Part shown: one piece after another, positions 10,836 to 36,747 of the stretch
Numbering within the stretch: position 1 is the stretch's first letter
How the letters are laid out: each line of letters begins with the position of its first letter
Origin: a virus
IMG/VR virus record: IMGVR_UViG_3300036826_000109
Location: 1-42,491 of that record
Length of the DNA stretch: 42,491 nt
Direction: 5' to 3' (one strand)
The notes under the pieces: model-generated
The model's database searches: none
Told to the model about the DNA's origin: nothing
The model's input: the letters and a program-made list of their open reading frames with translations, nothing else
Program-made: the position numbers and the translations under genes

Positions 10836-12053
10836 ATGGCAAACGTCAACCTGACCATAGGAATGGTCACGCGGGAAGCCGCCCGCATTCTCGTGAACAG
10901 TCTCAAACTCGCCGGGCTCGTCAATCGCGACTATGACGATCAGTTCGCGAAGACGGGCGCAAAGATCGGCTCGGTCTGCAATGTCCGGATGCCGGTCAAG
11001 TACCTGCTCCGTCGTGGACAGGCGCTTCAGCCCCAGGCATCGATCGAAACCTACGTGCCGGTCCGGATCACGCAGCAGACCGGTGTGGATCTTCAGTTCT
11101 CGCTCGCGGAAATGGCGCTCGATCTGGACGACTACAGCAAGCGGTACATCCAGCCTGCCGTGGCGACCGTGGTCAACGACATTGATTACGCCGTCGGCCA
11201 ACTCTACAAGGACGTGTGGAACAGCGTCGGTACGCCGGGCACCGTCCCGTCGGCCCGTCTGACCTACCTGCAAGCAGCCGCGTTACTCGACAAGACGGCA
11301 ACGCCGCGTGACGGGCAGCGGTACATGGTGATTGGCGAAGACATGCATCCGGCCATCGCCAACACGGAAGCGCCGTTGTTCAATCCAGGGCAGACGATTT
11401 CGGCCATGTACAAGTCCGGCCTGATGGCGCAGAAGGCGCTCGGGTGGGACGAGTGGTACATGGATCAGAACATTGCCCGGCATACCGTGGGACCGCTCGG
11501 CGGCTCACCGGTTGTCGGCGCGGCCAACCAGACGGGCTCCACCCTGGCCGTGACCGGGTTCACGGCAGCGGCGGCGGCACGGCTGAACCAGGGCGACATC
11601 TTCACGATTGTCGGCGGGCCATTCGGCGTCAATCCGCAGTCGCGGCAGTCAACCGGCGCGTTGCAGCAATTCGTGGTGACGGCTCCGGTCGCGTCAGACG
11701 CGGCGGGCGCGGCGACGATTCCGATCGCGCCCCCGATTATCACGTCGGGACCGTACCAGACCGTCACGGCGTCGCCGGGCTCGGGCTCGGCGCTCACCGT
11801 CGTCGGCGCGGCGGGCACGCAGTCACCGCAGGGGCTTGGGTTCCATCCGGACGCGTTCACGCTCGTCATGGCGGATCTGGAAGAACCGCAGGGCGTGTGG
11901 ATGGCGTCACGCGTCAACGACAAGCAACTCGGGATTTCCATCCGCGTCGTCAAGGCGTACGACATTTTCACCGACAGCCAACCGGCGCGTCTCGACGTGC
12001 TGTGGGGTGTGAATACGCTCCGGCCGGAACTGGCCGTGCGGATTCAGAGCTAG
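10836..12053 (+). CDS. Major capsid protein, P22 coat type
   Basis: 405 residues (P22 coat is 430). The start MANVNLTIGMVTREAARILV, the segment VNRDYDDQFAKTGAKIG followed by RMPVKYLLRRG, and RYIQPAVATVVNDID fit the HK97-fold P22 coat family. A variable insertion-like region (about 215-320), rich in Gly, Ala and Thr, corresponds to where P22-type coats carry an Ig-like domain. GAGG precedes the ATG. It follows the scaffold gene by 12 bases. Confidence 0.9.
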   Translation: MANVNLTIGMVTREAARILVNSLKLAGLVNRDYDDQFAKTGAKIGSVCNVRMPVKYLLRRGQALQPQASIETYVPVRITQQTGVDLQFSLAEMALDLDDYSKRYIQPAVATVVNDIDYAVGQLYKDVWNSVGTPGTVPSARLTYLQAAALLDKTATPRDGQRYMVIGEDMHPAIANTEAPLFNPGQTISAMYKSGLMAQKALGWDEWYMDQNIARHTVGPLGGSPVVGAANQTGSTLAVTGFTAAAAARLNQGDIFTIVGGPFGVNPQSRQSTGALQQFVVTAPVASDAAGAATIPIAPPIITSGPYQTVTASPGSGSALTVVGAAGTQSPQGLGFHPDAFTLVMADLEEPQGVWMASRVNDKQLGISIRVVKAYDIFTDSQPARLDVLWGVNTLRPELAVRIQS

Positions 12054-13014: not shown

Positions 13015-13731
13015 ATGGCCGTCCATACCGCGCTCGACTGCATTACGGCCGCGCTCAAGCGGATCGGGGTCGTTAGCGGTATCCAGACGCCTAGCGCGGA
13101 TCTGGCGGCTGATGGGCTCGATCGCTTGTCGTCTCTGCTGGAAAGTTGGCTGACCGAATCGCTGATCGTTTACGCGCAACAGCGAGTTGTGCAGTCCATG
13201 ACGATTGGCAAAGCCCTGTACACGATTGGAACGGGCGGGGATATCGCCCAGGCTCGGCCGCTCTGGATTACCAACGCGGCGGTCACGATTCCAGGCTCGT
13301 CGCCTACGGATGAAATGCCACTGGAACCGCTGAACGACGATCAATGGGCCGCGACGAGCCCGAAGCTCCTGCAATCGACGCTGCCGGATCGGTACTACTA
13401 CAACGCGAATCATCCGCTCGGGGAGATATATCCCTGGCCGGTGGTGAACATCACAGGCGTCTCGCTCTGTTTGTACTTGCCGATCCAGTTGCCGACGACG
13501 TTAGCGCTGACGACGCTGATCGATCTGCCGCCTGGGTACTACCGGGCGATACGGGACAACCTGGCCGTGGAGCTTGCCCCGGAACTGGATCGGCAGATCG
13601 ATCCCAATCTCATGCAGTTGGCGATCGACGCGAAGTGGGCGATTAAGCGGCCGAATTTCCGGCCGTTGCTCATGCGCTCCGATCCGGCGCTCTTATCGCA
13701 CGGTGGCTATAACTGGCTGAGTGACGAGTAA
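13015..13731 (+). CDS. Tail accessory factor, P22 gp4-like head-to-tail adaptor
   Basis: 238 residues (P22 gp4 is 166). The N-terminus (DCITAALKRIGVVSGIQTPS, then LSSLLESWLTESLIVYAQQ) is the typical gp4 helical start; later LPPGYYRAIRDNLAVELAPEL matches the conserved helix of this family. Gp4-type proteins bind the portal after packaging and form the platform for the gp10-like tail factor encoded next. The stop overlaps the next start (TAATG). Confidence 0.85.
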   Translation: MAVHTALDCITAALKRIGVVSGIQTPSADLAADGLDRLSSLLESWLTESLIVYAQQRVVQSMTIGKALYTIGTGGDIAQARPLWITNAAVTIPGSSPTDEMPLEPLNDDQWAATSPKLLQSTLPDRYYYNANHPLGEIYPWPVVNITGVSLCLYLPIQLPTTLALTTLIDLPPGYYRAIRDNLAVELAPELDRQIDPNLMQLAIDAKWAIKRPNFRPLLMRSDPALLSHGGYNWLSDE

Positions 13732-15209
13732 TGGCGAGCATTCCGCTCATTGGGCCGACCTACGAGCTTCGCAACGTCAATCAGGACGCGCAACGGACCA
13801 TGAATTGGTATCCGCAGATTGACGAGACGCGACAGGGGGCCGCGCCGACGTCGTTTGTGCCAACGCCGGGTATGAAAGCGTGGGCGTCAACGCCTGGGCA
13901 AATTATCCGGCCGGGCGGATTGTGGAGTCAGGCGGGCCGGTTCATGGCCGTCGCGGGGGCGTTTCTGTTTGACATTCCGAGTACGGGCGGGGCCGGGCTA
14001 TTCAGGGCGTCGTTGTCGTCGGTGGACGGGCAAAGTCCCGTCTGGATGACGACGAACGGCGAAGCCGGGCACCAGTTGTATATCGCGCAACCATCATCGG
14101 GAGCCATTCTCGATCTGGCAACGTACGTTGCCAATAGTATTGGCGGAGGTTATCCGGCGAAGGTGCTCGGGAATACCTTCATGGATGGGTATTTCATTGC
14201 GTTTACGTCGGGCGGGTTTCAGATTTCTAAACTGGAAGACGGGTTGACATGGAGTGCGGCCGACAAAGCCTCACGCTCGGAAGGCTCCGATCCGGTCGTC
14301 GGTGGGATTCAGAATCACCGAGAAATCTGGCTCTTTGGGGAACTGACGACGGAGGTTTGGTACAACAACGGGGCCGCGTCGTTTCCCTTCGCGCCGGTTC
14401 CTGGCGTGTTTCTGGAAATGGGCTGTGCCGCTGCCTCTACGATTTGCCGCTTCGACAACGGCGTGATTTGGCTCGGCAACAATCGCGACGGGTCGCGGAT
14501 TGCGGTCGCGGCGGTCCAGTACGCGCCACAACGGATCAGCACGCACGCGATTGAACAAGCCTGGGCCACATATCCGCGTGTCGATGATGCGTACGCCTTC
14601 GTCTATCAGCAGGACGGGCATACCTTCTACCAGATCACGTTTCCGAGTGCGGGGCCGGTTGGTGGGCCGTATGGGACCGGGATCGGGGCGACATGGGTGT
14701 ACGACGTGAGTACGCGCATGTGGCACGAACGGGGATTCTGGAATACGACGCTGGCACGGTGGGAAGCACACCGGGCGGTCGCGCAAGCCTACGCCTTTGG
14801 AAAACAAGTCGTGGGCGATCGGCTGACATCGAATCTCTGCGACTGGACGATGAACGAATCGACTGATTTAACCGCGCCGATTCGTCGGATGCGTCGCACG
14901 GCACACCTGACACAAGAGCATCGGCGGACGTTCTTTTCGCACGCGGAAATTGCGCTCGCGACGGGCCTGGGGTTGTCTGTCGGTCAAGGCGTCAATCCTC
15001 AAGTGATGTTGCGGTGGAGTGACGACGGGGCGCATACGTGGTCGCCTGAATGGTGGGTGTCGGCCGGGCGTCAGGGGCAGTACGAATGGCGGGCGCTCTT
15101 TGACCGGCTCGGCTCGTCGCGAGACCGCGTGTTTGAAGTCACCGTTTCCGATCCGATTCCCTGGCGGATGATTGCGGCCTTTGTGAACGTGAGTGGAGGC
15201 ACGCACTAG
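13731..15209 (+). CDS. Packaged-DNA stabilisation protein, P22 gp10-like
   Basis: 492 residues (P22 gp10 is 472). The N-terminus PLIGPTYELRNVNQDAQRT followed by MNWYPQ is characteristic of the family, in which six copies close the portal channel below gp4. The body is beta-propeller-like with repeated short strands and Trp motifs (WLGNNRDGS, WVYDVSTRMWHERGFWN). Gene order portal, scaffold, coat, gp4, gp10 matches P22. It ends against the GTG start of the His-rich tail gene. Confidence 0.88.
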   Translation: MASIPLIGPTYELRNVNQDAQRTMNWYPQIDETRQGAAPTSFVPTPGMKAWASTPGQIIRPGGLWSQAGRFMAVAGAFLFDIPSTGGAGLFRASLSSVDGQSPVWMTTNGEAGHQLYIAQPSSGAILDLATYVANSIGGGYPAKVLGNTFMDGYFIAFTSGGFQISKLEDGLTWSAADKASRSEGSDPVVGGIQNHREIWLFGELTTEVWYNNGAASFPFAPVPGVFLEMGCAAASTICRFDNGVIWLGNNRDGSRIAVAAVQYAPQRISTHAIEQAWATYPRVDDAYAFVYQQDGHTFYQITFPSAGPVGGPYGTGIGATWVYDVSTRMWHERGFWNTTLARWEAHRAVAQAYAFGKQVVGDRLTSNLCDWTMNESTDLTAPIRRMRRTAHLTQEHRRTFFSHAEIALATGLGLSVGQGVNPQVMLRWSDDGAHTWSPEWWVSAGRQGQYEWRALFDRLGSSRDRVFEVTVSDPIPWRMIAAFVNVSGGTH

Positions 15210-16228
15210 TGCCGGGCCGGTCTGATTTCTACGTGGCGCGGCTCGGGCGGGCTCCTGGCGTCCGTGACGGGTTTGTCGGTGCGGATATGTCCGCGCCGTA
15301 CCTGCCGATTGAAGCGGCCGTCGTCAGCCTGAACAACGGGATTATCACGCGGCCGTGGCTCGATTGGTCAAACGGCGTGACAGGCGCGATTATCAGTCTG
15401 CAAACGGAACTGAGCCAGCAGCCGGGGACGCTTTCAGGGACGGTCGCGCAACAACCGACCGGGCTCGGGCCGTCCAATGCGGGCTTGCTCTACATGCTGA
15501 CCGACTACGGGCACATGATGCGGTGGACCGGTACCGTCTGGACGTTCGCACCGGGCGATATTGAAAACCAGTTCTTTGCGTACCGGGTGGCTCCGCCTGG
15601 GGTCGCGGGCTGGTGGCAGGAATGCGACGGCACTATCACCGATTACGTCGTCGCGGGCGCGGCGACAATCACAGTGGCGGGCTTCACGACGCCGAATCTG
15701 AAGACGCTCGGCACGTACCTGAAGTCAGGCGCGGCCTATACCGGGGCGGTGATTGCAGCGGTCGCGGCGGTGATTGCGGGCGCGACGGCGGCGGAAGCGG
15801 CCCATACACACGCGCAAGGGGCACATACGCACGGCTTCGGGCTGCCGTCCCATCAACACGGCTTCAATGCGGGCGTGCATAGTCACGGCTTCAACGCCGG
15901 GAGTCATAGCCACGGCTTTTCGGGGACGACGGGCACGCCCGATTTTATCGATCGTGCCGACTCGGGGACCGGCTTCTATGCAGGCACATCCGATCATCAC
16001 CACGGTTTTAGCGGGACGACGGGCGCGGCGGGTGTGAGTGGGACGACGGATGGCACCAATGTCGCGGGCGCGACGGATTTTAGCGGGGCGGCGGGTGGCT
16101 CAACGGATGGGGGGACGGGCGGCACCACTGGCGCGGGCTCGTCACACGCGCATGGGGTGGGCACGTTAGCGAACGATGCCAGTGCGGAGCCACGGCACAT
16201 GGATATGCGGGTGTACTTCCGGCGATGA
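15209..16228 (+). CDS. His-rich tail protein with collar-like domain
   Basis: 339 residues from a GTG. The middle has a collar-like segment (PPGVAGWWQECDGTITD, then TPNLKTLGTYLKSG) resembling phage tail-collar proteins. Then come repeated HxH motifs: HTHAQGAHTHGF, SHQHGFNAG, HSHGFNAG, HSHGFSGTTG, HHHGFSGTTG and SHAHG. In trimeric fibre tips such as T4 gp12 and gpV-like spikes, HxH residues coordinate metal ions, so a metal-stabilised trimeric fibre is likely by analogy. The end (MDMRVYFRR) is like other collar proteins. It follows the gp10-like gene, where P22 encodes tail parts. Confidence 0.7.
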   Translation: MPGRSDFYVARLGRAPGVRDGFVGADMSAPYLPIEAAVVSLNNGIITRPWLDWSNGVTGAIISLQTELSQQPGTLSGTVAQQPTGLGPSNAGLLYMLTDYGHMMRWTGTVWTFAPGDIENQFFAYRVAPPGVAGWWQECDGTITDYVVAGAATITVAGFTTPNLKTLGTYLKSGAAYTGAVIAAVAAVIAGATAAEAAHTHAQGAHTHGFGLPSHQHGFNAGVHSHGFNAGSHSHGFSGTTGTPDFIDRADSGTGFYAGTSDHHHGFSGTTGAAGVSGTTDGTNVAGATDFSGAAGGSTDGGTGGTTGAGSSHAHGVGTLANDASAEPRHMDMRVYFRR

Positions 16229-17214
16229 CGGTCAGAGTGGCGGAACTAGACGACGTGCCGCGTCTCGTAGACATGGGGCGGCGACAGATCGCGGCGACGT
16301 ATGGTGAGGCCGTGGCCGACAACCCCGCACACCTAACGGTATTGACGACACGCATGGTCAGCGATCCGACGTGTGCGGTCTTCGTCGCGGAACAGTACGG
16401 CACGGTCGTCGGGATGATTGGCGTGGTGAGTTTCGCGCACCACTTGTCAGGCGCGGCAATGGTGGGCGAAGTGGCGTGGTGGGTCGATCCGGAAGCGCGT
16501 GGCAGTGGCTTGGCGCTCTTGCGCCGGGCGGAACAGTGGGCGCGGGAACGAGGCGCGACGGCCATGCAAGTGGCGGCTCCTGGCGGCTCGGATGTGGGAC
16601 GCTTGTACGAACGGCGTGGCTATCGGCTAGTCGAAACGACGTATCAGCGGCCGGTGGCTCCGGTCTTTCGCGTGGAAGACAACGTACTGCCGGATTGGAG
16701 AGCGTACAGAGGCGCAATTTTGGCGCAACCGTTCGCGGACGTGGAGGCCGGTCCGGGTGTCGTGTTTCATGGGATCGGGGCCGTCGATGCTCAGGTGCCG
16801 GAGTGGATTCGTTCGCACTATCCCGCGTTGACGCCAACGATGACATTCGCTCGGCAGAGTCCGAAGGGTCAGATCGAACCGAATTTCATTCACACCGATC
16901 GGGACATGGGTGAGTGGACCGGGATTCTCTATCTCAATCCCGATCCGGTACCGGAGGACGGGACAACCTTCTGGCGACACCGGGCAACCGGGGCGATTGC
17001 CAGTACCGCGATGACACCGGCAGACATGGCGCTGGAAATGGACGCCTGGCGTGATCTCGATCAGTGGGAACCGTGGCACACGATCGCGGCTCGCCCGAAC
17101 CGGCTGGCGCTCTTTCCAGCCGGGTACTTTCATTCGCGGGCCTTGGCGGAGAACTACGGAACCGGCGAGACGGCGCGGCTTGTTCAGGTGGTCTTCGGAA
17201 CGGGGAGACTGTAA
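16225..17214 (+). CDS. GNAT acetyltransferase fused to 2OG-Fe(II) oxygenase-like domain
   Basis: 329 residues. Residues 1-145 form a GNAT fold: VRVAELDDVPRLVDM start, strand EVAWWVDPEARG, acetyl-CoA loop RGSGLALL (92-99) and the end motif RLYERRGYRLV. Residues 148-329 look like a 2-oxoglutarate/Fe(II) dioxygenase (DUF6445-type): HTD with H223 and D225, H303 in PAGYFHSR, and a possible 2OG-binding R318. All three metal ligands appear present, so the domain is probably active. It lies between tail and ejection genes and starts inside the previous stop. The substrate is unknown; modification of virion, host or cell-surface molecules are all possible. Confidence 0.7.
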   Translation: MTVRVAELDDVPRLVDMGRRQIAATYGEAVADNPAHLTVLTTRMVSDPTCAVFVAEQYGTVVGMIGVVSFAHHLSGAAMVGEVAWWVDPEARGSGLALLRRAEQWARERGATAMQVAAPGGSDVGRLYERRGYRLVETTYQRPVAPVFRVEDNVLPDWRAYRGAILAQPFADVEAGPGVVFHGIGAVDAQVPEWIRSHYPALTPTMTFARQSPKGQIEPNFIHTDRDMGEWTGILYLNPDPVPEDGTTFWRHRATGAIASTAMTPADMALEMDAWRDLDQWEPWHTIAARPNRLALFPAGYFHSRALAENYGTGETARLVQVVFGTGRL

Positions 17215-17823
17215 ATGGCTATCGCAACCGGCACGGCGCTCGCGCTCGGACTAGGGGCTGCATCAGCAGGGACGAGTCTGCTCGGAGCAAAAAAGGCTAG
17301 CACAGCGTCAAAGCAGGCCGCAGCGACGCAGCAGCAGGCGTCGCGGGACGCGCTGAACTACCTGACCGGCATTACGAATCAGATTACCGGGCAGTTTGGG
17401 CCGGGCAGTCCGTACGAAGCGCAGAATCGGGCGCTCTTTGCGCCGTACGTGCGGATGGGCACGGACAGTCTCAGCAATCTGTACAAGGGCATGGGCATGG
17501 GGCCCATGCCGAACTATCCGCCACAACAGATGCCGATGAACGTCGGCGGTGGACCGCCCCCTGGCGCGGGGCCGTGGGGTGGCGCGGTTGCGGGGGGCGC
17601 ACAGGTGGGACAGCGACTCATGCCGCGTCCGGTGGGTGCGCCGGTCCTGATGCCCGGCCGGGCGCTCGGGGGACCGGTGAACGTCAATCAGCCGTACGTG
17701 GTGGGCGAGCAGGGGCCGGAAGTCTTCGTACCGAATCAGTCCGGCATGATCGCGCCGAATCGTGCTCAACGGTTTTGGGGTACGAGTACGCCACTCAGCG
17801 GTCTCTACAACTTCAGGGTGTAG
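17215..17823 (+). CDS. Ejection-type virion protein with tape-measure-like C-terminal motif
   Basis: 202 residues. It begins with an Ala/Gly-rich hydrophobic segment (ALALGLGAASAGTSLLGAKK), then a Gln-rich helix (SKQAAATQQQASRD), as in the N-termini of podovirus internal/ejection proteins. After a Gly/Pro/Met-rich middle the C-terminus has GGPVNVNQPYVVGEQGPEVF and VPNQSGMIAPN, a motif I know from the ends of tape-measure proteins of long-tailed phages. The following gene is the main ejection protein, supporting a role in DNA delivery through the envelope. Confidence 0.55.
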   Translation: MAIATGTALALGLGAASAGTSLLGAKKASTASKQAAATQQQASRDALNYLTGITNQITGQFGPGSPYEAQNRALFAPYVRMGTDSLSNLYKGMGMGPMPNYPPQQMPMNVGGGPPPGAGPWGGAVAGGAQVGQRLMPRPVGAPVLMPGRALGGPVNVNQPYVVGEQGPEVFVPNQSGMIAPNRAQRFWGTSTPLSGLYNFRV

Positions 17824-17826
17824 GTC

Positions 17827-19029
17827 ATGGCGTCCGCTGATTACATTCGCCAACTCTATCAACAGTATCTCGGCCGTGATCCGTGGCCGGATGAAGTCCA
17901 GCATTGGGCGAGTCAACCGCTCGGCATGGGCCAGTTGCAGCAGATGTTTTACGACAGTCCGGAGGCGCAGCAGTACCGCGCTCGGGGTGTCCCGGCCGGT
18001 GCTGAACAGCAGCCGCAACAGCAGCAGCAAGCGGCGACGCCTGCCGGTCCGCAGGGCGGCAATTATCAAGGCTGGTTCAATTCGCTCGTGGCGGGCAAGC
18101 CGTTCAATCAGCAAACGATTCTCGATCTGGAACCGATCCTCAATCAGTACGGCGTGCAGTTGACGCCGCCCAACAGTCAGGGCGAGCGCACGAAGATCGG
18201 GATTCCCAACGGGCAGGGTGGCTACGATTGGGTGCGGGTCGGCTTCGGGGAAGGGCATCCAGTTTGGATACCGCAAGGGGGCGACACTCCGGCTCAGGGC
18301 GAGTACAACGCGCCGTTCACGGAACAGTTTTCGTACGCGGATTTCGCGCCGCCGGACGCGTTCAGCCGTCCGGAGTGGCAGGCACCTACGACGGTCGGAG
18401 ACTTCAACGATCCGGGCTACACGGCACGGATGAAGGCGGGTGAAGAAGCCTTACAACGCTCGGCGGCGGCGAAAGGCACGCTCTTGACCGGCGGCACGCT
18501 GAAAGACATTTCCGATTGGGCGTCCGACTACGCGAGTCAGGAGTACCAGGGCGCGTACAACCGGGCGTATCAGGACTACACGACGAACTATCAGAAAGCC
18601 TGGGACGAGTACAAGACCAATTACCAGAACAAATTCAATGAGTGGTCAGCCGGGTACGGGAAGGCGCTCGGGGAGTATCAGCAGCGGTACAACATTTACG
18701 ACGCGAACCAACGCAACCAGTACGATCGCATGTACCAACTCGCACAACTCGGGCTCAGCGCAGCCGGGCAGCAGGCCGGATACGGGACCGGCTACGCGTC
18801 AATTTACGGGAATGCGCTCGGGAACCTGGGGAGTGCCGGGGCCGGGCTGATTACCGGTGCGGGGAACGCAGGCGCGGCCGGGCAGGTCGGCAGTGCCAAC
18901 GCGTGGAATACGGCGCTCGGGAATGTCGGGAACTTGGCCGGGCTCTACGGCTCCATGTATGCGCTCGGGATGGGGAGGGGGCCAGTCAGTACGCCACCGT
19001 ATAGCAATCCGAATGGATGGTTTGCGTAA
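17827..19029 (+). CDS. DNA ejection (injection) protein with DUF4214-like head
   Basis: 400 residues. Residues 1-45 (YIRQLYQQYLGRDPWPDEVQ) resemble DUF4214. After a Gln-rich linker, the C-terminal half has DPGYTARMKAGEEALQRSAA, AKGTLLTGGTLKDISDWASD and YASQEYQGAYNRAYQDY, a pattern I recognise from putative injection proteins of P22-like and other podoviruses, then a Gly/Ala-rich tail (GNAGAAGQVGSANAW). Aromatic repeats (YTTNYQKAWDEYKTNYQNKF) suggest a long helix. It is encoded in the ejection-protein position between tail and fibre genes. Confidence 0.7.
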   Translation: MASADYIRQLYQQYLGRDPWPDEVQHWASQPLGMGQLQQMFYDSPEAQQYRARGVPAGAEQQPQQQQQAATPAGPQGGNYQGWFNSLVAGKPFNQQTILDLEPILNQYGVQLTPPNSQGERTKIGIPNGQGGYDWVRVGFGEGHPVWIPQGGDTPAQGEYNAPFTEQFSYADFAPPDAFSRPEWQAPTTVGDFNDPGYTARMKAGEEALQRSAAAKGTLLTGGTLKDISDWASDYASQEYQGAYNRAYQDYTTNYQKAWDEYKTNYQNKFNEWSAGYGKALGEYQQRYNIYDANQRNQYDRMYQLAQLGLSAAGQQAGYGTGYASIYGNALGNLGSAGAGLITGAGNAGAAGQVGSANAWNTALGNVGNLAGLYGSMYALGMGRGPVSTPPYSNPNGWFA

Positions 19030-25896: not shown

Positions 25897-26664
25897 TCAG
25901 GCAACAGCCTGTTTGTGCCGGAACGCGCCAGGCTCATACGCCTTCGCGAAGGTGTAACCGTCCCCCTGCTTACGAAGATAGCCGCGTCGAAATAGGGCAC
26001 CAATCGCGTGCATGATCGGCGCAACGTCGCGGGCTGAGACTGTCCGTTGCAATCGCGCTCGAATGTCGTTCTTTGTCAGCGTGACGCCATTCGTAAAGAG
26101 GCTCATGAGCGTCGTCGTGCGTTCGTGCGCTCGCGTGCGGGCGGCGCTCGCTCGACTGCGCTGGCGCGTGGGCGTCTGTTTGACCGGCTTTACCTCAGTG
26201 GCTCGCTTTGCCAGGCGACGACGCCAGGCCGATATGCCGTACTGCTTGCTCGTCAGTACGTACCGGCCGGTCTTGTCTCTTTTGACATAGCCATTGGCCC
26301 GCATGACGCCAAGAGCACGGCCAACATAGCTCAACGACAACCCGGTGTGTACGCAGATTTCTTCAACGGTCCGTGGTCGTTTCGCATCGATCCAGGCCAT
26401 TACGTCAGCCGCACGGTTCTTCTTGCTGGCTCGCCGTTGTCGTGGCGTCTTCGATGCGGCGGGCTCAATGGTGGCCGCTGGCAGCATGGCGCGACCGTGG
26501 CCGTTCTTCAGCGCTTCTTCGCGAATGACGGTCTTGAGCTTGCCGGGCAGGGCGAGCTTCGCTTGGCCGGTGACAAACTCCTGCACACAGTCAATCGTGG
26601 CGCGGATGCACTTGGCCCGGTGTTCGTACAGTTCGGCCAGACGAGTTAACTGATCGGTCGTCAT
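25897..26664 (-). CDS. Putative DNA-binding protein with two winged-helix-like regions
   Basis: 255 residues, basic. Residues about 87-135 (VMAWIDAKRPRTVEEICVHT, then LSLSYVGRALGVMRANGYV) and about 185-235 (MSLFTNGVTLTKNDIRARLQ, then IGALFRRGYLRKQGDGY) each read like a winged helix followed by a wing, separated by an Arg/Ala-rich linker. AAAGGA precedes the ATG. It is the second gene after the leftward repressor, so it could be a regulator of the lysogeny region. No named family is recognised. Confidence 0.5.
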   Translation of the reverse strand: MTTDQLTRLAELYEHRAKCIRATIDCVQEFVTGQAKLALPGKLKTVIREEALKNGHGRAMLPAATIEPAASKTPRQRRASKKNRAADVMAWIDAKRPRTVEEICVHTGLSLSYVGRALGVMRANGYVKRDKTGRYVLTSKQYGISAWRRRLAKRATEVKPVKQTPTRQRSRASAARTRAHERTTTLMSLFTNGVTLTKNDIRARLQRTVSARDVAPIMHAIGALFRRGYLRKQGDGYTFAKAYEPGAFRHKQAVA

Positions 26665-35240: not shown

Positions 35241-35446
35241 GGCGCGGCGGGTACGTGCGCGTGGTGGTGCCGCCGAAGCGCGGATACTCCAAGGCGTTCC
35301 GGCCGCACGGCGACACTGGGAAGAAGTACACGCTGGATGCGATCCCGGCCGGGCTCTGGCGTGAAGTGCAGGAGAAGTCGAAGCGGGAGGGCATTTCGAT
35401 TCGGGCGCTCCTTTTGACGTATCTCAAGGGGTGGGTGCAGTCATGA
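35237..35446 (+). CDS. Small basic protein, CopG-like
   Basis: 69 residues from a GTG. The basic start (VRVVVPPKRGYSKAFRPHGD) leads to LDAIPAGLWREVQEKSKREG then ISIRALLLTYLKGWV, a strand-helix-helix layout like ribbon-helix-helix proteins. It sits immediately before and overlaps (ATGA) the integrase, so it may regulate or assist integration, as small RHH-type excision/regulatory proteins do. Confidence 0.5.
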   Translation: MRRGGYVRVVVPPKRGYSKAFRPHGDTGKKYTLDAIPAGLWREVQEKSKREGISIRALLLTYLKGWVQS

Positions 35447-36666
35447 GCGGGCGACCACGAGGGACGACGTTACGCGTCAGTCAGTGCTCGCCGTCTGAGC
35501 GGGAGTGGCGCAAGCTCCAGTGGGGCGTGTTCTGGAATGTGTATGAGCCGGGCCGGATCGGTCGTCGGAAGCAAAAATCGGAATGGTTCGCGACACAGCA
35601 GGACGCCGAAGACTTCAAGGTGCGGATGCTGGCCGCGCTCGCTCAGCCGGATCTGATCCTGCCTGTCCGCGTGCAGCATTGGCGGGCGGATTCGGTGGGG
35701 GCGCTGGCCGTGGATTGGTTGGCGCATGTGGAAGGGCAGCGGGAAGCGGCGACGCATCACGGCTATCAGAACTGCGTCAGAAGCTATCTCGCGCCGAAGC
35801 CGGGGCACAAACGCTCTCCCGGCCTAGGCGATCTGATTGTCAGTGACGCGACACTGACGCCCAAAGTGGTCGCGGATTTTGAAACCGGCCTGTACAAAGC
35901 GGGCGTGAGTTTGAGTACCAGGCGGCGGGTGCATCGGGCGTTCAGTGCGTTTTGTAGCTATGCGGTGTTTGCCGGGAAACTCAACCATAACCCGTGTTAT
36001 TCGCTTGGCCGGATGCTTCGGAAACGCGGGGAGGAAGACAGCGAGCCGGAGCCGAATCCGTTCACGCCGGACGAGATCGCTCGGATCTTCGATCACATTG
36101 AAGCGTGTGAGGCTGACTGGCTTCCGTACTTTCAGTTCCTCTATGACGTGGGCGTGCGTCCTGGGGAAGCGGCGGCGCTCAAGTGGACGGCATTGGATTT
36201 TGATCGATTGAAGGTCAGGATCGAACTGAATTGGTCTCCGGCCGGGAAGACGGACAAGCCGCCGAAGACGCACGAGTGCCGGACGATCGACATGACGAGT
36301 CTGGTGGCGGAGCGGCTATTGCAGTGGCGACCGATTCAGCGGCAAGCGCTCTTGCGCCGGGTCATTCAGCAGAGCCCGTATGTGTTCACGAGCCGTCGGG
36401 GGACGCGGGCCTTTCAGGACAGTCATGTGCGGCTGGTGTTCGGCCGGGTGATGAAGGCGTGCGGCATCCAGGGGCACACGCTGTATGACTTTCGGGATAG
36501 CTTTGCCACGTCGCATCTGGTGGAGCATTGGGATCGCAAACTGGCGTGGGTGAGTCACCAACTCGGCCACAAGCATGTGTTGACGACGCAGCGTTTCTAC
36601 TACAAGTACCGGCCGACGACGGCCACCAAAGGGTTCGCGGACGAGATCCGCAATTGGGGGAAGTAG
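35443..36666 (+). CDS. int: Tyrosine recombinase integrase
   Basis: 407 residues. The N-terminal arm-binding-type region is followed by a SAM-like core-binding domain (about residues 85-185: ALAVDWLAHVEGQREAATHH, STRRRVHRAFSAF) and the catalytic domain: R239 in YDVGVRPGEAAALKW, R351 in LYDFRDSFATS, H376 in HQLGHKHVLTTQRF, nucleophile Y386 or Y387. The usual His three residues before the second Arg is Tyr348 here, a tolerated variation in the family. The start overlaps the preceding stop. The gene ends five bases from a tRNA-Thr gene, the usual layout for tRNA-targeting integrases. Confidence 0.9.
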   Translation: MSGRPRGTTLRVSQCSPSEREWRKLQWGVFWNVYEPGRIGRRKQKSEWFATQQDAEDFKVRMLAALAQPDLILPVRVQHWRADSVGALAVDWLAHVEGQREAATHHGYQNCVRSYLAPKPGHKRSPGLGDLIVSDATLTPKVVADFETGLYKAGVSLSTRRRVHRAFSAFCSYAVFAGKLNHNPCYSLGRMLRKRGEEDSEPEPNPFTPDEIARIFDHIEACEADWLPYFQFLYDVGVRPGEAAALKWTALDFDRLKVRIELNWSPAGKTDKPPKTHECRTIDMTSLVAERLLQWRPIQRQALLRRVIQQSPYVFTSRRGTRAFQDSHVRLVFGRVMKACGIQGHTLYDFRDSFATSHLVEHWDRKLAWVSHQLGHKHVLTTQRFYYKYRPTTATKGFADEIRNWGK

Positions 36667-36670
36667 GGGG

Positions 36671-36747
36671 TGGAGCCGACGATCGGAATCGAACCGATAA
36701 CCCCCGCATTACGAATGCGGTGCTCTGCCGGATTGAGCTACGTCGGC
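36671..36747 (-). tRNA. tRNA-Thr (anticodon CGU)
   Basis: A complete cloverleaf on the minus strand: acceptor GCCGACG/CGTCGGC, D-stem GCTC/GAGC, anticodon stem CCGCA/TGCGG with loop TTCGTAA (anticodon CGT, reads ACG), five-base variable loop, T-stem ATCGG/CCGAT with TTCGATT loop, discriminator T and encoded CCA. The 3' end points at the integrase stop. It may be a phage-carried tRNA or the attachment-site copy of the host gene. Confidence 0.9.

Follow-up and report, generated by a model that had tools for sequence, protein, structure and literature searches.

The fusion gene and its neighbours

The window, by which we mean the whole stretch of 42,491 nucleotides analysed here, encodes the virion proteins of a P22-like, short-tailed phage: a P22-type coat protein (positions 10836–12053, + strand; Pfam P22_CoatProtein, 2.2e-33), a portal protein (phrog_156), a scaffold protein, an adaptor of the SU10/P22 type and a gp10-like tail hub. 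The gene for the last of these, a P22 gp10-like tail hub or head closure protein Hc3 (13731–15209, + strand; phrog_578, 5.5e-97), forms the upstream border of the slot studied here. It is followed by a gene (15209–16228, + strand) encoding a His-rich protein of 339 residues, which may be the tail needle judging from its location at the gp26 position. A Pfam search with this protein gave no match, and its match to phrog_4311 is weak (0.0043). It contains repeated HSHGF/HxH motifs, and a counterpart was present in just one other fetched locus (L037).

The following gene (16225–17214, + strand) starts with an ATG and encodes a single protein of 329 residues, hereafter the fusion protein. The upstream gene overlaps this ATG by four bases, and the next gene begins at position 17215, directly after the stop codon of the fusion gene, which is therefore probably part of one late operon. 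The product of the downstream gene (17215–17823, + strand) is probably an ejection protein, as it occupies the gp7 position; it has homologues in 86 loci and matches the DNA ejection profile phrog_598 weakly (0.016). Its N-terminus has the form M-[AS]-[IV]-x-T, which is conserved in most loci inspected. The gene located at positions 17827–19029 (+ strand) encodes a DNA ejection protein (phrog_598, 8.3e-11).

Further downstream, an integrase gene (35431–36666) adjoins a tRNA-Thr(CGT) gene (36671–36747) on the opposite strand; the phage is thus probably temperate, and its attachment site may be marked by this tRNA gene. A gene on the − strand (25897–26664) encodes a helix-turn-helix regulator, probably an ordinary one, with weak matches to PADLOC Csa3 and to MarR.

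The first part of the fusion protein, residues 1–146 (16225–16662, + strand), is a predicted GNAT acetyltransferase domain according to Pfam, phrog_1249, a structural model and Foldseek. Residues 1–142 match GNAT acetyltransferases in both the Pfam (Acetyltransf_1, E = 8.6e-11, 42.6 bits versus a curated cutoff of 20.7) and the PHROG profiles (phrog_1249, E = 2.8e-25). The acetyl-CoA pyrophosphate loop RGSGLALL comprises residues 92–99 (16498–16521, + strand), in which R92-G-S-G95-L-A97 corresponds to the motif [QR]-x-x-G-x-[GA]. Residue conservation was counted in alignments of 54 rows of relatives: R92 is present in 49 and G95 in 48 of them, and E82 and Y128 are also kept in most.

The second part, residues 147–329 (starting at about 148; 16663–17214, + strand), is a predicted 2OG-Fe(II) oxygenase domain of the DUF6445 type. 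The full-length protein scored just below the DUF6445 cutoff of 24 bits (23.6 bits, E = 5.5e-5), and the domain alone above it (25.9 bits, E = 1.1e-5). Moreover, DUF6445 was matched by the 2OG domains of all 54 relatives, and the profile phrog_1644 was also matched (E = 3.9e-17). The predicted iron-binding residues are H223 and D225, in the sequence H-T-D (16891–16899, + strand; each conserved in 54/54 relatives), and H303 (17131–17133, + strand; 52/54), and the 2OG-binding residue is R318 (17176–17178, + strand; 54/54). This conservation of active-site residues makes it likely that catalysis is under selection.

An AlphaFold model built from 58 related rows contains two confident domains (mean pLDDT 95.2), with the canonical GNAT order of strands and helices in residues 1–135 followed by a beta-rich second domain; according to the pTM of 0.73, the placement of the two domains relative to each other is less certain. 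Foldseek aligned the first half with solved GNATs, including 2eui (E = 2e-9), RimI (7n1l) and DpA, and the fusion protein with viral 2OG dioxygenases across about 205–218 alignment columns. Searches of PDB sequences with the 2OG half gave no significant match, a search of bacterial genomes with the 2OG alignment gave no relatives, and a defence-system search with the fusion protein gave no match.

Thus, the 329-residue frame combines a predicted GNAT with a predicted DUF6445 oxygenase, with conserved active-site residues in both. The first-pass annotation had proposed just this, namely two intact enzyme domains in one protein encoded within the virion gene cluster. The ORF, the profiles obtained for each half and the model all agree with it; the residues that it named in the acetyl-CoA loop, the iron-binding triad and R318 are exact. 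Neither of the two results that it had named as refuting this reading was obtained: the second half is beta-rich in the model, and the active-site residues are conserved among homologues. Both families are known, and the fusion protein is a new arrangement of them; no published example of a GNAT-2OG fusion was found in the literature searched.

Occupants of the slot between the hub and ejection genes

Viral contigs were searched with the 2OG and GNAT halves and then with local profiles, after which the loci were de-duplicated. Both enzymes were found in 48 distinct viral loci, fused in 12 (the window included) and encoded by separate adjacent genes in 36, frequencies that are not estimates of prevalence because the loci were chosen by similarity to GNAT or 2OG. 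The separate genes overlap by exactly four bases in 12 of the 36 loci, as in translational coupling. The position of the pair is between the gp10-like tail-hub and gp7-like ejection genes, and a hub gene and/or an ejection gene is nearby in all 48 loci. In 23 further loci, some of which end at a contig edge, the slot contains a GNAT gene only; a 2OG gene without GNAT was found in the slot of none of the surveyed loci. Several GNAT and 2OG ORFs appeared to have long N-terminal extensions, which we discounted as translations of the wrong frame in DNA rich in GC.

The pair is therefore common in this phage group. The arrangement had been described as unusual in the first-pass annotation; this is half right, given the 48 loci with the pair, and a GNAT beside internal-virion genes was already on record (PMC6775973). 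When the hub protein alone served as the query of a smaller search, about six of the 11 distinct loci that had enough sequence showed a GNAT match, weak in some, after the hub gene, and one of these six also contained a 2OG gene.

A total of 34 loci contain a 2OG gene only, and these lack homologues of the hub and ejection genes. Some of them have glycosyltransferase, tryptophan halogenase or tail-fibre/decoration genes in their vicinity; examples are the marine phage DUF6445 oxygenases at L062:6827-9963, near a tryptophan halogenase gene, and L075:6141-7489, adjoining a glycosyltransferase gene. These surroundings would fit an enzyme pair whose substrate is a metabolite or surface sugar, as would the presence of polyamine and aminoglycoside acetyltransferases among the nearest solved GNATs detected by Foldseek. 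We consider such a small-molecule or glycan activity improbable for the fusion protein, because the slot lacks sugar and metabolite genes and the neighbours are virion genes in 48 of 48 loci.

Besides, we read six named records that contain a related hub and were chosen regardless of GNAT. The slot proteins of Rhodoferax phage P26218, DSL-LC05, a Vibrio phage and ctn9Y15 are related to each other, as judged by alignment, and appear cupin-like by eye; that of the Rhodoferax phage has an extra C-terminal region with a weak match to SET (0.015, below the cutoff). The other two, PAE2 and PBR31, have short slot proteins that appear GNAT-like by eye, with a weak match to Acetyltransf_4 (0.027) for PAE2. 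The cupin-like protein, with its SET-like C-terminal region, occupies the same slot at L366:7747-8622 and in L372-L445. A scan gave 74 loci with relatives of this protein, accompanied by the hub in 66 and by an ejection homologue in 24. An NHS motif, typical of SET domains, is conserved in 64 of the 74, and neither GNAT nor 2OG was found in any of them. The labels cupin and SET are leads. The presence of such proteins instead of GNAT and 2OG in other phages points to exchangeable modification-type enzymes at this slot.

The fused loci also give information on how the fusion arose. One protein encoded in the same slot has the reverse order, 2OG-GNAT, in one frame (L038:6359-7648), and the order 2OG-then-GNAT is also present in the slot at L448:8241-9237, either fused or adjacent. 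Fusion hence arose more than once. In a quick tree built from the 2OG domains of the slot, that of the window falls into a supported group comprising six fused proteins; the tree requires three changes between the fused and separate states, with several forks weakly supported. It is possible that the fusions of the GNAT-2OG order had a single origin. That the two domains have been joined in either order argues strongly, if circumstantially, for a task shared by both activities.

The corresponding genes of P22 and T7

In P22, the gene order is 4-10-26-14-7-20-16, and the fusion gene sits in the place of gene 14, which is annotated as "head morphogenesis" or "virion stability factor". The equivalent spot in T7, where the order is 11-12-13-14-15-16, is that of gene 13. 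For decades, the annotations of the P22 and T7 genes of this slot have named assembly factors without giving a clear mechanism.

P22 gp14 (L173:5912-6367) belongs to DUF2824, as does the protein encoded at L175:3001-3453, and has no clear GNAT match by sequence; one member of the DUF2824 family reaches Acetyltransf_1 at 0.024. The topology of the P22 gp14 model (pLDDT 85) is that of a GNAT, and Foldseek matched the model to SpeG (E = 5.9e-9, probability 1.00, TM 0.78) as well as to other GNATs in the PDB; a GNAT fold is thus predicted. The DUF2824 profile did not match the fusion protein, hhalign of the GNAT family against P22 gp14 gave a probability of 2.9%, and profile-profile comparison of the GNAT family with T7 gp13 gave no link. 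The window GNAT is linked to P22 gp14 by fold and position, and to T7 gp13 by position. A true GNAT (phrog_1249, 1.5e-44) is present in the gene 13 spot of the T7-like phage YeP5, flanked by tail tube B on one side and an internal virion protein on the other. The authors of the cobavirus study equated the slot GNAT of SIO1-type phages with T7 gp13, for which a role in morphogenesis was suggested (PMC6775973).

The history of this slot favours an assembly role for the fusion protein. The first-pass annotation had also considered surface glycans or host targets on entry; we found no evidence supporting either. If the fusion protein travelled in the virion, it would be ejected with the DNA and act in the host at entry, and its gene does directly adjoin those of the ejection proteins. 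Nevertheless, the listed virion proteome of phiPsa17 contains the gp14–16 counterparts and lacks that of gp13, which occupies the T7 slot (PMC4517105), and no ejection or packaging signal was found in the fusion protein. A packaged effector therefore seems to us a poor prospect.

It is also conceivable that the GNAT fold mainly chaperones or scaffolds the ejection proteins, its chemistry being secondary or lost. The assembly-type annotations of P22 gp14 and T7 gp13 and the GNAT-fold model of the former agree with this, and so do the degenerate CoA loops of a few slot GNATs (L004, L033 and L035). Such scaffolding would not need R92, G95, E82 and Y128, which are mostly kept, or the near-invariant iron- and 2OG-binding residues, and we regard a mainly non-catalytic factor as distinctly unlikely.

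A putative role in virion assembly and comparison with known systems

We tentatively propose that the fusion protein is a two-step modification module that acts at the stage of assembly and serves the neighbouring virion proteins, namely the ejection proteins; of the readings considered we prefer this one, without placing it at better than even. It would work inside the infected cell while the late genes are expressed, rather than as a main part of the virion. There it would acetylate and hydroxylate a virion protein encoded nearby, with an ejection protein from the next genes as the most likely target. The modification may help this protein to fold, to stay soluble or to enter the procapsid. 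GNAT would be the core partner and the oxygenase an added step.

N-termini of the M-[AS]-[IV]-x-T type are of the kind used by N-alpha acetyltransferases, which makes the protein encoded by the gene at 17215 the first candidate substrate, although this choice is a guess. The proline, lysine and asparagine contents of the two downstream ejection proteins showed no dependence on the presence of 2OG in the locus. Small differences in the composition of hub and adaptor were set aside as a hint to the substrate, as they may reflect base composition or relatedness. Besides the equal contents in the two ejection proteins, several observations speak against the module: the degenerate CoA loops mentioned above, the negative or weak profile comparisons with P22 gp14 and T7 gp13, the presence of GNAT-like genes outside the slot, such as SP6 gene 28, and the action of the phage GNAT Rac on the host.

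The main rival to the assembly-stage module is a host target, in which case a late-made enzyme would modify host proteins, for instance transcription or translation factors, and merely sit in the late operon. There is a precedent for a phage GNAT acting on the host: Rac of LUZ19, whose gene lies immediately before the structural genes, changes the acetylation of host proteins and causes cleavage of RNAP alpha, and its CoA-pocket residues are required (PMC7552054). Rac, moreover, weakly matches phrog_1249 (4.9e-4). However, its gene precedes the portal gene and is not located between hub and ejection genes, and the tight, repeated position of the slot genes beside the ejection genes, together with the P22 gene 14 match, points to virion proteins. 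We therefore judge a host-directed enzyme to be unlikely, if less so than the alternatives discussed above.

The assembly-stage module can be extended to podoviruses at large, where the interval between hub and ejection genes may be a site at which protein-modifying enzymes replace one another as cassettes and bring about the chemical maturation of the ejection proteins. The cassettes would be GNAT, GNAT with 2OG (split or fused either way) and cupin-like with SET-like. P22 gp14 would then be an ancient member, as T7 gp13 might be too, and either may have decayed catalytically. This wider reading is speculative, and somewhat unlikely as it stands. What makes our results interesting is the slot more than the fusion: proteins with an acetyltransferase fold, or of other modification types, occur here time and again in podoviruses, beside the ejection machinery. 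The conserved acetyltransferase/hydroxylase pair and the predicted GNAT fold of P22 gp14 make post-translational modification of ejection proteins directly testable. Hydroxylation of a virion protein by a phage enzyme would, if true, be new to our knowledge.

Among known systems, Rac resembles the fusion protein in being a phage GNAT encoded next to structural genes, in this case of the phiKMV type, but it differs in family (mainly phrog_3986) and position and lacks a 2OG domain. The phrog_1249 GNATs of Pam1 (gp11), SP6 (gp28), SIO1 (gp26.2) and YeP5 belong to the same family as the window GNAT half by profile, and those of Pam1, SIO1 and YeP5 also adjoin tail and internal-virion genes; unlike the fusion protein, all four are single-domain proteins without a 2OG partner. 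The family of the 2OG half, DUF6445 (PF20043)/phrog_1644, has marine phage members that are located elsewhere and have no GNAT neighbour. T7 gp13 (Phage_T7_Gp13) occupies the same slot, between tail tube B and the internal core genes, but has no profile link to the fusion protein. P22 gp14 likewise shares the slot, from gp26/gp10 to gp7, and is GNAT-fold in its model, but it lacks a 2OG domain and a significant sequence link to the window GNAT.
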